21,031 bases of DNA from a virus. The notes beneath the pieces are model-generated. The model was given only the letters and a program-made list of their open reading frames with translations, did no database searches and was not told the origin of the DNA. The stretch is from the IMG/VR virus record IMGVR_UViG_3300023237_000094, positions 1 to 21,031 of that record. The stretch is one strand, 5' to 3'. Shown piece by piece: positions 7,234 to 18,572 of the stretch; the first letter of the stretch is position 1; every line of letters starts with the position of its first letter. The position numbers and the translations under genes were made by a program.

Positions 7234-8667
7234 ATGCATTATAAGTTTAAAAGCAAGCCTTTTGCACATCAATTAAAAGCGCTTGAAATGTCTTGGGATA
7301 AAAAAGTATTTGCCTATTTCATGGAAATGGGGACTGGTAAATCTAAGGTTCTTATTGATAATATTGCCATGCTTTACGATAAAGGTAAGATTAATGGAGC
7401 TCTTATTGTAGCTCCTAAAGGTGTTTATAAAACCTGGCATGATGAACAGATACCAGATCATATGCCAGAGCACATAGAAAAAGAAATGGTGTTATGGGAA
7501 TCGGGAGCAGGAAAAAAGAAAGAAGAAGAACTTAATAAATTATTTAAGTCTTCCGACGATCTTCATATTTTGATCATGAACGTGGAAGCATTGTCTACTA
7601 AAAAGGGAAAAATATTTGCAGCTAAATTTTTATCTTGCCATGCATCTATGATGGCAGTTGATGAATCTACTACTATTAAAAATCCTACGGCTATTAGAAC
7701 TAAAACTATTATTGATTTAGGTAAAGATGTTAAATACAAAAGAATTTTAACTGGATCACCGGTTACCAAATCCCCTTTAGATTTATTTACTCAATGTTAT
7801 TTTTTAGACCCATGGTTGTTAGATCAACAGTCCTACTATAGTTTTAAAACTAGATACGCCATCATGAGACAAATTAATGTTAGCGGAAGAATGATTCAAA
7901 TTGTTAGTGGCTATAGAAATTTAGGGGAACTATCCAATCAATTAAAACCATTTTCATTTAGATGTTTAAAAGATGATTGTTTAGATTTGCCAGCAAAAAC
8001 ATTTATGAAACGAATCATTCAATTGACCGATGAACAACAAAAAGTTTATGACCAAATGAAAAAACTTGCTCTTGCTGAACTCAATGGAAAATTAACCACT
8101 ACGGTAAATGCTATCACACAAATTATGCGATTACATCAAATTACATGTGGGCATTTCAAATCTGACGACGGAACTGTTCAAAAATTAAAAAACAATAGAT
8201 TAGATGAACTCATGGATGTGTTATCAGAAATGGAAGGAAAAGCAGTTATTTGGGCCCACTACCGTTATGACATTGAAGTAATTGTATCAGCCATTAAAAA
8301 AGAATATGGGGACAACACGGTAGTTACTTATTATGGAGATACGACTACGGACGACAGACAAAAAGCAATTAAGTCTATTCAAGATCCAGAGAGTCCTGTT
8401 CGTTTCGTTGTAGGTACTCCACAAACGGGGGGTTATGGAATTACCTTAACCGGCGCGTCTACCATGATTTATTATTCTAATGGATATGACTTAGAAAAAC
8501 GACAACAATCGGAAGCTAGAATAGATCGTATTGGTCAAACTAGAAATATGACTTACATTGATTTGATTGCAGAAAAAACTATAGATGAAAAAATAGTTAA
8601 AGCATTACGAGACAAAGTAAATATAGCCACCCAAGTTATGGGTGAGGAATTAAAGGAGTGGATATAA
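7234..8667 (+). CDS. SNF2-family (superfamily 2) helicase/ATPase
   Basis: A 477-aa SF2 ATPase of the SNF2/RapA-like type, the only plus-strand gene in the window. Near the N-terminus is a Q-like motif (FAHQLKAL, 10-17). Walker A is EMGTGKS at 31-37, and VAPKGVYKTW follows at 59-68. The Walker B position reads VDES (142-145), so DEST replaces DEAH. Motif III is LTGSP at 172-176. The C-terminal RecA-like domain carries AVIWAHYRYDIEVI, GGYGITLTGASTMIYYS and motif VI QSEARIDRIGQ at 425-435. Such enzymes translocate on double-stranded DNA. It is compact, with no extra domains, like phage versions that may help remodel DNA or displace bound proteins. Its ribosome-binding site is weak (AGAAAGA). Its stop lies inside an inverted repeat. 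Confidence 0.93.
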   Translation: MHYKFKSKPFAHQLKALEMSWDKKVFAYFMEMGTGKSKVLIDNIAMLYDKGKINGALIVAPKGVYKTWHDEQIPDHMPEHIEKEMVLWESGAGKKKEEELNKLFKSSDDLHILIMNVEALSTKKGKIFAAKFLSCHASMMAVDESTTIKNPTAIRTKTIIDLGKDVKYKRILTGSPVTKSPLDLFTQCYFLDPWLLDQQSYYSFKTRYAIMRQINVSGRMIQIVSGYRNLGELSNQLKPFSFRCLKDDCLDLPAKTFMKRIIQLTDEQQKVYDQMKKLALAELNGKLTTTVNAITQIMRLHQITCGHFKSDDGTVQKLKNNRLDELMDVLSEMEGKAVIWAHYRYDIEVIVSAIKKEYGDNTVVTYYGDTTTDDRQKAIKSIQDPESPVRFVVGTPQTGGYGITLTGASTMIYYSNGYDLEKRQQSEARIDRIGQTRNMTYIDLIAEKTIDEKIVKALRDKVNIATQVMGEELKEWI

Positions 8668-8793: not shown

Positions 8794-9354
8794 TTAAAGA
8801 TATTTAGTTGGAATTTGTATATGACCCAATGTTTTTCCTTTGTTAGATCCCTCTTTGATAGTGTATCCAGATCCATCGGTATTGATGTCTACTTCTTTTC
8901 TATTATTAAATAATATTTTTTCTGCCTGTTCTTTTATTTTTTCATTATAATTTGATAATGGTTTAATGGTTCCACCACCAATATCTGTTAAGTTATTTTC
9001 TCTATCTAAAAATTTATAGTCTATTTTAATAACTTCAAAATCTTTTGTAATTTTTTTGCAAATAGTCTCAGGATCAAATGCCCCACAAGAATATACATCA
9101 AATTGCATTATTGCTGGAGATGGTTCATCCCAAACATGCATAACAATATGAGATGTTTCAATAATGGCTGCTCCCGTAATTCCACGATTACCTGGCACGT
9201 CATGATAAACAACATAAGGACCCATTAAAACTTTCATGTTAATAGATTTAATAAAATCTCCTAACCAATTAGTTAGGAATGCAACATCCATTGGGGGACT
9301 TACTGCTTCAGCGCGAATAATTAAATGTTTATGAACTAATACTTCGCCCGCCAT
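8794..9354 (-). CDS. speD: S-adenosylmethionine decarboxylase-like protein (SpeD family)
   Basis: A 186-aa relative of pyruvoyl-dependent AdoMet decarboxylase, which makes the aminopropyl donor for spermidine. The self-processing and active-site region is ETSHIVMHVWDE at 66-77. S68 would become the pyruvoyl group, H73 matches the processing histidine five residues later, and C90 in DVYSCG matches the catalytic cysteine. The residue before the serine is Thr67, where the family usually has Glu (AESHI). Two extra residues lie between the TWPE-like segment and the DxxxCG segment. About 50 residues after the core (IKEQAEKILFNN onward) exceed the usual length of short prokaryotic enzymes and are not recognised. 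GGAG sits 6 nt before ATG 9354. As a phage auxiliary gene it may alter host polyamines; relatives with amino-acid decarboxylase activity make the substrate uncertain. Confidence 0.85.
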   Translation of the reverse strand: MAGEVLVHKHLIIRAEAVSPPMDVAFLTNWLGDFIKSINMKVLMGPYVVYHDVPGNRGITGAAIIETSHIVMHVWDEPSPAIMQFDVYSCGAFDPETICKKITKDFEVIKIDYKFLDRENNLTDIGGGTIKPLSNYNEKIKEQAEKILFNNRKEVDINTDGSGYTIKEGSNKGKTLGHIQIPTKYL

Positions 9355-9365
9355 CTCGTTCTCCG

Positions 9366-9611
9366 TTAGTTGCCAGTAGATTTAAAAATTGCAAGAACTG
9401 CAGCCAATAATCCAGCTATCAAAATGTATAAAAGTTTGTTTATTTTACTTTCTGTACTTTCTACTTTTTTTTCTATTTTAGAAATAGAACAACCCATGTG
9501 TTTTAAATGATTTGTTTTAATAACGTTAATATCTTTTTTTAAACCTGTAACATGGCCATATAAAGCCACTAAGTGCTCTCCAGTTGTTTTTGGTGTTTTA
9601 CCGTTTGCCAT
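9366..9611 (-). CDS. Small coiled-coil protein with C-terminal membrane helix, XhlA/holin-like
   Basis: An 81-aa protein. Residues about 25-58 are a charged heptad-like helix (ISKIEKKVESTESKINK is part of it). They lead into one hydrophobic segment, LLYILIAGLLAAVLAIF (about 60-76), and a short polar tail. This order, coiled coil then single C-terminal transmembrane helix, is that of XhlA-type lysis-associated proteins and other small phage membrane proteins. Its place at the end of the late gene block fits a lysis or virion-membrane role. No endolysin or spanin is seen beside it, so the lysis idea is only inference. The ATG directly abuts the TAA of the preceding 1372-aa gene (TAAATG), with a poor Shine-Dalgarno, suggesting coupled translation. 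Confidence 0.8.
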   Translation of the reverse strand: MANGKTPKTTGEHLVALYGHVTGLKKDINVIKTNHLKHMGCSISKIEKKVESTESKINKLLYILIAGLLAAVLAIFKSTGN

Positions 9612-16829: not shown

Positions 16830-17653
16830 TCTTTTTTAAAATCAAGATCATCCATCAAACGACCTGTAAACCTGTATTCACCAATGTGGGTAATATATTC
16901 ATCAACTAAAATATGACATTTACCACCTATTTCAGCCCATCGTTTGCAGAAGCCAAAATCTTCTCCGTAATACTTCTTGGTTTCTGGTTCATGGTAACAG
17001 TCAAAGAAATTATACATAAACTCTTTTTCCACCATCTTACCATTGAGGACGGTAGGTTGATTGATTTTTAATTCAGGTAGTTCTTTAATCATTTTTTTAA
17101 ACACTTGTTTCTTGATTAACATACATCCCGTAGGAGCATGGGTTACTTCTGCTACTCCCCCAATTACCTTTACCTCATTTTTTCCCTCTAGTTTAAGAGG
17201 CCAGGTAAAACCTTGTTTAGACATAGTGTTTCCATCGGTAATGTTTTTATGTTTAATTCGTTTGGCTATCTTTTCCCAGTCCAGGTCTTTTAAAGGATAC
17301 GGAGCTGCAACAATATCTTTATCTGCTGCAACTAATTTCATAATAGTCTCAAAAGAAAATTCAATATCTGAATCAATAAACAACATATGAGAGTAAGGAT
17401 GTTTTATGGATTCTTCCATAAAAGTATTAACACATAAATTCCTACCTTGAGTTACTAAGGAAGATTTTAATAAAGTAAAAGAAACTAAAATACCATTAGA
17501 CATACATTTTTGTTGAAAAGCTAATAACGCTTGTGTGTAGTGAATAGAGCATTCACTATGAACTGGAGTTGCTACAAAGATAGAGGGTAATGTACTAACG
17601 TTAGGTACCTCTGTCTTTTTATTCATCCAGATAGGTTTACTTGGATTTTGCAT
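16826..17653 (-). CDS. GT-A fold glycosyltransferase
   Basis: A 275-aa glycosyltransferase of the GT-A class, close to the GT2-like type. The N-terminal Rossmann-like start is SIFVATPVHSE (24-34). An Arg-containing loop SLVTQGRNLCV follows (65-75). The metal-binding DxD is D94-S95-D96 in MLFIDSDIEF. Then come DIVAAPYPLKD and THAPTGCMLIKKQVF, a second conserved region. YYGEDFGFCKRW near residue 230 supplies the acidic residues (ED) expected of the catalytic base region. It has no membrane helix, so it should act in the cytoplasm. ATG 17653 lies 17 nt inside the end of the GT-B gene, with AAGGAG 7 nt upstream. The paired genes probably modify one target, perhaps a virion protein or host surface glycan, which is inference. 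Confidence 0.87.
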   Translation of the reverse strand: MQNPSKPIWMNKKTEVPNVSTLPSIFVATPVHSECSIHYTQALLAFQQKCMSNGILVSFTLLKSSLVTQGRNLCVNTFMEESIKHPYSHMLFIDSDIEFSFETIMKLVAADKDIVAAPYPLKDLDWEKIAKRIKHKNITDGNTMSKQGFTWPLKLEGKNEVKVIGGVAEVTHAPTGCMLIKKQVFKKMIKELPELKINQPTVLNGKMVEKEFMYNFFDCYHEPETKKYYGEDFGFCKRWAEIGGKCHILVDEYITHIGEYRFTGRLMDDLDFKKD

Positions 17654-18572
17654 TAATAGCTCCTTTCAAAAAGTTGGTCCAGGCATTTCCCTGTTTAGTC
17701 CAATTATAATATTGATTCATATAATTGATCTGGTTTTGTAAGTGTTGTTTCACTCCATCAGAATTTAATTTATTTGCAATAGCATTAATAGCATAAGCAA
17801 ATTGTTTTGCTAAATTTTCATAATTTTTTTGATAAGGAACATAAGTAGAAAATTCAGCGCAGGTTTCAAACAAAGCTCCATAATCTGTAGTAATAGTATA
17901 CAGACCCGCTGCCATAGCTTCTACTGCAGAAATACAAAAAGTCTCTTCAAAGATACTAGGGAAAGCAAATATATGATACTTATGTAAATTCTCTAAAATG
18001 TATTTATTTGGTTTATACCCAATGTAATTTACATTAGGTAATTCTTTAGCTTGATCGTATAGACCTTGATAATGTTTATCATTAACTTCTTTAAAAGCAG
18101 TTCCATAAATCTCGCAGCTAGAATAAACATCTAATGATACCAGTGGATTGGTAACCAATTGCATAGCTGCTAGCATCACGTTTAATCCTCTCCATGGAGT
18201 AGGATGGAATATTAATTTAATAGGATCCCCTGATTTATATTCAAGGTTTCTGGGTGTGATAGAGTCTATACCATTTTTAATAACCGTAGATCGTTCGCAA
18301 GGAATGTCAAACATCATTCTAAATTTCTCATAGTTCCAATGACTATTAAATACATACCAATCATATTTAGAATGGTTAGATTTATCTTTAAACCAAGATG
18401 CTAAATTAGGTTGATCATAGGAATTATGTTGCCAAAGAATATTAACTTTGCTAGGATGTAAAGGTATTTTTTCTGGAACAGAAGTGGTAATCTGTACTTG
18501 ATCCAATAGTTCTTTACTTACATGTCTTTCTAAGAACTGCATCTGCAGTTCCGTTCCACCAAGTGGTTGCAT
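17637..18572 (-). CDS. GT-B fold (GT4-like) glycosyltransferase
   Basis: A 311-aa GT4-like glycosyltransferase. The early glycine loop is PLGGTEL (3-9). The N-domain holds ILWQHNSYDQP and DWYVFNSHWN, where the histidine-rich positions are typical. STVIKNGID (96-103) is the usual N-terminal to C-terminal domain boundary motif. FHPTPWRGLNVML (122-134) is the nucleotide-phosphate loop region. The E-x7-E motif is E210...E218 in EETFCISAVEAMAAG, followed by TDYGALFE. It is shorter than typical GT4 enzymes (about 350-400 aa), mainly in the N-terminal domain, but all main landmarks remain. Its ATG shares one base with the upstream stop (TAATG), and no strong Shine-Dalgarno is seen, so coupling is likely. 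It overlaps the GT-A gene after it. Confidence 0.9.
   Translation of the reverse strand: MQPLGGTELQMQFLERHVSKELLDQVQITTSVPEKIPLHPSKVNILWQHNSYDQPNLASWFKDKSNHSKYDWYVFNSHWNYEKFRMMFDIPCERSTVIKNGIDSITPRNLEYKSGDPIKLIFHPTPWRGLNVMLAAMQLVTNPLVSLDVYSSCEIYGTAFKEVNDKHYQGLYDQAKELPNVNYIGYKPNKYILENLHKYHIFAFPSIFEETFCISAVEAMAAGLYTITTDYGALFETCAEFSTYVPYQKNYENLAKQFAYAINAIANKLNSDGVKQHLQNQINYMNQYYNWTKQGNAWTNFLKGAINAKSK

Follow-up and report, generated by a model that had tools for sequence, protein, structure and literature searches.

A virus record of 21,031 bases (the window, meaning the whole stretch of DNA that was analysed) encodes on its minus strand, at 8794..9354, a 186-aa protein with an ATG start in which a SpeD-like core is continued by a C-terminal tail. 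The locus raises two questions: which substrate such a decarboxylase uses, and what the tail is and does. The gene is described here as a speD-tail fusion on the basis of its ORF, its Pfam and PHROG matches and the occurrence of 61 distinct ORFs with the same fusion. Because near-identical copies (97-99%) are present in contigs from three metagenomes (L002-L004), in addition to the 61 distinct fused ORFs, the fusion is not an accident of assembly. As judged from sequence comparisons, the product is probably a pyruvoyl-dependent decarboxylase of arginine or ornithine, not of AdoMet, that carries a tethered SAR11-derived module. The gene is convergent with a SNF2-type helicase gene (7234-8667). 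Upstream of it, at 9366..9611 on the minus strand, lies a gene for an 81-aa protein with a hydrophobic C-terminal end, possibly a lysis accessory to judge by position and sequence; a weak match to phrog_937 'hemolysin' (E 0.21) was the only one obtained for this protein.

The decarboxylase core, residues 1-125 (8980..9354, minus strand), is predicted to adopt the AdoMetDC fold. The fusion protein matches the phage AdoMetDC family phrog_3125 as well as PF02675 (AdoMet_dc; E 1e-14, 55.2 bits, cut-off 25), the PF02675 domain ending at residue 118. An AlphaFold model built from 51 rows had a mean pLDDT of 73.5, with the core at about 80-88 and the tail in the low-confidence range of about 47-66, and the best PDB matches of this model in Foldseek were the potato, T. 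maritima and human AdoMetDCs. The serine, histidine and cysteine that an initial annotation had named for pyruvoyl formation and catalysis are in place. Thr67-Ser68 (9151..9156, minus strand; Thr67 codon 9154-9156, Ser68 codon 9151-9153) is the predicted self-cleavage site and pyruvoyl source, while His73 (9136..9138, minus strand) and Cys90 (9085..9087, minus strand), the counterparts of T. maritima H68 and C83, are invariant in a 60-row alignment. The threonine said to precede the processed serine can be read directly in the sequence. The two residues said to be added before the catalytic cysteine are also real: Ser68 and Cys90 are 22 residues apart, compared with 20 for T. maritima S63 and C83 (numbering as given in PMC10407285), and alignment to 2iii contains a two-residue gap, with W-D-E replacing W-P-E. 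The C-terminal tail exists as well, but it measures about 60 residues (126-186) rather than the 50 first reported.

The active-site pattern is widely shared. IMG/VR scans for relatives returned 193 in one case and at least 596 in another, with 80 loci kept from each, and the combination of T-S, W-D-E and a cysteine at +22 occurs in 111 of 112 distinct relative cores, one falling outside the pattern. Because T-S and the +2 spacing are common to these 111 relatives and to the characterised pelagiphage enzyme of HTVC201P, they are a trait of the clade, and Thr-Ser, singled out in the initial annotation, is not peculiar to this protein. The nearest relatives that carry annotation are enzymes of pelagiphages. 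A tblastn search of 50,697 phage records found 15 with a match to the window enzyme, the best at 50% identity; these comprise 11 Pelagibacter phages, two cyanophage S-RIM32 records, one uncultured phage and one Microcystis phage. Thr-Ser and the spacing are the same in all eight pelagiphage and uncultured-phage proteins that were read. In HTVC109P (L086:2492-2860), the annotated start of speD (2597-2863) seems too late, and the ORF from the conserved start encodes 123 aa. Microcystis phage MaAM05 (L091) has a tandem speD pair followed by speE, the second speD being divergent in the W-P-E region.

Three substrates have to be weighed for an enzyme of this kind, and AdoMet is by far the least probable. 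The PF02675 score, well above its cut-off, would suit an ordinary AdoMet decarboxylase, and bona fide AdoMetDCs are reported from phages (PMC9992855). However, the score against the AdoMetDC equivalog TIGR03330, 47.2 bits, is below the cut-off of 75.65, and the window protein has Asp where W-P-E has its proline, a residue equated, by inferred position, with the Pro (gamma) described as conserved in all AdoMetDCs (PMC10407285). Furthermore, no aminopropyltransferase was found among the window proteins scanned, and the HTVC201P protein is reported to lack AdoMetDC function, spermidine not having been restored in a speD mutant (PMC9992855). The phylogeny proposed with the initial annotation did not group the protein with ordinary AdoMetDCs: the window family sits together with the HTVC201P clade, apart from the AdoMetDC-type rows, at an SH-aLRT of 91, in a quick tree of 123 rows and 133 retained columns that has only four AdoMetDC-type rows and long outgroup branches. 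The relation to HTVC201P, the TIGR03330 score and the position in the tree make AdoMet an unlikely substrate, and a shift away from it, as first supposed, is likely and is the best reading of the protein. As a novelty the supposition fails, since such a shift, to arginine, has already been published for a pelagiphage (PMC9992855).

The choice between arginine and ornithine is closer, and arginine appears somewhat more likely. The HTVC201P SpeD homologue (AXH71538) is reported to decarboxylate arginine but neither ornithine nor lysine (PMC9992855). It is the nearest characterised sequence, with 45% identity over residues 4-122 and the same T-S, Ser-Cys distance of 22 and W-D-E. It differs in being a 122-aa enzyme without a tail, in two residues near the serine (Ser-5 is Gln, against Ala in the window family, and Ser+4 is Phe, against Met), and in its setting, as HTVC201P speD adjoins ribonucleotide reductase genes and the small protein is encoded unfused near 38.4 kb. 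An ornithine decarboxylase of the SpeDC type, which would make putrescine directly, is a credible though more doubtful reading. Five freshwater phage relatives of HTVC201P are reported as ornithine decarboxylases by assay (PMC9992855), and HTVC201P itself is placed inside the SpeDC clade (PMC10407285). The SpeDC enzymes of the latter study are alike in fold and cofactor and, if the residue is rightly placed, in the threonine before the processed serine, which would fit the '2-Thr' of their diagnostic set. Against this stands the arginine specificity of the nearest characterised relative. In addition, PMC10407285 gives Gln, Thr, Phe and Tyr as diagnostic of SpeDC; if their inferred positions are right, Thr and Tyr would fit, whereas Gln and Phe would be replaced by Ala and Met in the window protein.

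The tail begins with a linker, residues 126-135 (8950..8979, minus strand), at which the low-confidence stretch of the model starts and which varies in length and sequence among relatives, and continues with a module at residues 136-180 (8815..8949, minus strand). Profile comparisons identify this tail, for which the initial annotation offered no explanation, as a fused SAR11-type small basic protein. To remove circularity, host-only profiles were built from chromosomal copies alone. A profile of 27 copies located 'elsewhere' on SAR11 chromosomes (away from suf genes) found window residues 136-180 at E 1.8e-13, and one of 24 suf-linked copies found the window tail at E 4.9e-5, while at E<=10 these profiles listed neither a single one of 2000 shuffled tails nor any further ORF of the window. 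The tail also matches phrog_32989 (E 3.4e-7), whose members are small phage proteins encoded on their own and whose profile has 54 positions. The pI is 9.3 for the window tail and 9.6 for a SAR11 copy. Structure prediction for the 56-aa SAR11 protein by itself gave a helix followed by beta strands at a mean pLDDT of 77.9. This fold had no Foldseek match at E<=0.001 in PDB or BFVD and nothing over Z 2.8 with VIA-align 2, each a weak exclusion for so short a protein; HMMER against PDB sequences returned only weak helix matches to designed or calcium-binding proteins, and there was no Pfam match at E<=0.5.

An ArfA-type ribosome-rescue factor was considered for the tail and rejected. The protein is small and basic, its LF...GSGY...KG pattern looks ArfA-like by eye, and an ArfA gene has been reported from the pelagiphage HTVC027P (PMC12753301). 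Nevertheless, hhalign against an ArfA alignment gave a probability of 0.1 and E 0.52, a separate ArfA-like ORF exists in SAR11 genomes (80 of 147 have one over the PF03889 cut-off), and HTVC027P has both an ArfA-like protein, gp30, and the module, gp53; identity with ArfA is thus extremely improbable. The ArfA-like ORFs of the SAR11 family (L402-L412) are very short, and HTVC027P gp30 resembles them.

On the chromosomal side, 238 module relatives were retrieved from 84,980 species genomes, and the best 80 of the 238 are nearly all from Pelagibacteraceae; in 76 of these, a sufA-type end motif precedes the ORF on the same strand, no more than 400 bases away. An example is Candidatus Pelagibacter ubique SCGC AAA795-O20 (L211), where the module has a suf operon on one side and, on the other, a glutamine synthetase gene that converges on it. 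With a 22-row profile that includes the window tail, the module was found in 107 of 147 SAR11-family genomes, one copy each, while in a sample of the class 2 of 289 genomes matched (G001 and G007), both of which also belong to the SAR11-family sample. The module is, among the sampled genomes, a single-copy chromosomal protein restricted to SAR11. It lies beside a sufA-like gene in 70 of the 107 genomes, elsewhere in 35 and could not be placed in two, and of the 122 genomes in which sufA-like sequences match strongly, 17 lack it. Six of the loci elsewhere were read, and four adjoin an rlmN-type gene, the copy in L358 being named as such and the other three recognised by matching sequence. Phage-type copies in bins assigned to Campylobacteraceae, Winogradskyella and Nanopelagicales (L182, L186, L192) are probably misbinned phage contigs.

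The same small protein is carried by many SAR11 phages. The unfused module occurs in 28 of the 50,697 phage records, and the same 28 were retrieved with a SAR11 query (E<=1) and a phage query (E<=0.01). They are 26 Pelagibacter phage records (some of them duplicate accessions), one uncultured Mediterranean phage and 023Pt_psg01, and no other phage record among the 50,697 had the module at these E limits. Among the carriers are podoviruses from several genera, HTVC008M, which is a myovirus, and HTVC201P. The HTVC008M copy is in a stretch without an annotated gene (L095:2429-2587; record 18232-18384, minus strand). In HTVC027P, the module gene (gp53) is two genes upstream of the GroES gene. Judged by score, the phage copies each come closest to a certain type of host copy. 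The phage copy at L031 scores 158 against the chromosomal copies of G031 and G048 and at most 87 against the suf type, the G009 chromosomal copy being of the L031-like type; the HTVC027P copy reaches 174 with a suf-type copy, compared with 122 for the other type; and the window tail scores 105 against G016 and G043 and at most 88 against suf-type copies. Among the 210 neighbouring ORFs collected from phages, 81 were scanned and include endolysin, GroES and terminase families, and the neighbours of the module on SAR11 chromosomes and in phages have no common theme.

The arrangement of module and decarboxylase was surveyed over 171 loci, ten of them from annotated phages, with 133 distinct speD ORFs. 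The module is fused in 61 of these ORFs, separate and downstream in six, upstream in nine and not found in the fetched flanks of 57, making fusion the commonest arrangement where a module is found near speD. Flanks exceed 1.4 kb on both sides in 30 of the 54 IMG/VR loci without the module. Where the module is downstream, speD ends near residue 131 and a tail-like ORF of 65-71 aa comes next (L048, L053, L054, L031, L032, L076-L080); in L070-L072, L074 and L081 the tail-like ORF precedes speD. The absence of the module from the fetched flanks of 57 ORFs shows that the tail is dispensable. Purifying selection acts on core and tail alike in fused ORFs, dN/dS being 0.110 and 0.137 respectively (27 disjoint pairs from the 61 ORFs). 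There is no in-frame ATG between core and module in 40 of the 61 fused ORFs, including that of the window, and thus translation there would yield the module solely in fused form, rarer start codons aside; GTG or TTG is found between core and module in 15 of the 61. L049 and L289, on the same contig, combine a fused tail with a separate small-gene copy upstream.

The fusion could also be neutral, two late genes that lay next to each other having been read through, with the tail keeping its own job without benefit to the enzyme; this has a chance only slightly below even. It would account for modules that may be upstream, downstream, fused or not found among the 133 ORFs, for the joint presence of fused and separate copies in L049 and for a linker that is variable in length and sequence. 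It sits less easily with the predominance of fusion near speD and with the tree, on which the fused label needs 14 changes, at least four of them forced by starred branches (one row, L336, being mislabelled as fused), indicating that joining or loss happened repeatedly. Fusions of class-1b SpeD domains have been described in SpeD-SpeDC proteins (PMC10407285) and in SAR11 AdoMetDC-aminopropyltransferase proteins (PMC11107197). The window protein resembles them in having such a domain fused, but the domain is joined here to a module some 45 residues long and not to a polyamine enzyme. No account of the present fusion, or of the SAR11 partner protein, was found in the open-licence literature, judged by titles and the starts of abstracts.

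The setting of the infection bears on what such an enzyme might supply. The window PolA is nearest, among phages, to those of 023Pt_psg01 (59.7%) and HTVC027P (58.9%), and a 569-aa structural protein of the window is nearest to HTVC023P (55%). These similarities relate the window phage to HTVC023P-type pelagiphages, and a host from SAR11, a highly abundant group of aquatic bacteria, is likely because of this relationship. Late genes of the window include a glycosyltransferase gene (17637-18572, PF00534) and one for a conserved phage protein (16826-17653, phrog_1574). An AdoMetDC domain is encoded in 116 of 147 SAR11-family genomes, in most cases within an ORF of some 350 aa, and the four host proteins with this domain that were read are SpeD-SpeE fusions; AdoMetDC-aminopropyltransferase fusions from two SAR11 strains are reported to work in E. 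coli (PMC11107197). Because such hosts own a functional fusion of this kind, a phage would need only to feed putrescine into it.

In the proposed mechanism, the fusion gene would give rise to a class-1b AdoMetDC-fold proenzyme, which would undergo self-cleavage at the Thr67-Ser68 bond, residues 1-67 forming the beta chain and residues 68-186 the alpha chain. The first residue of the alpha chain would become the pyruvoyl cofactor, with His73 and Cys90 probably assisting, and the enzyme would then decarboxylate a basic amino acid and would not act on AdoMet; arginine, giving agmatine, is a somewhat likelier substrate than ornithine, giving putrescine. The diamine supply of the infected cell might thereby be raised, and putrescine, formed via agmatine if arginine is the substrate, could be fed into the host SpeD-SpeE fusion. 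The sequence shows that the part forming the alpha chain also carries, on the linker, the small basic SAR11-derived module, which was joined to speD where both genes were neighbours and which, once tethered, would presumably keep its free-standing job.

The novelty of this protein is its fusion partner, a SAR11 protein found in many SAR11 phages, the enzyme itself being of known type. A bolder and rather unlikely proposal is that the module is a SAR11-specific host-takeover factor taken up by unrelated SAR11 phage families, whose copies are similar to the type of particular SAR11 lineages, and that the fusion steers the decarboxylase to the machine on which the module acts, with diamines made where the phage needs them. 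A small protein shared by SAR11 chromosomes and phages would help to recognise SAR11 phages as a marker and might point to a step in takeover. Its fusion to a decarboxylase in some of these phages provides a handle on the function of the module, as enzyme activity can be compared between forms that have the module and forms that lack it.
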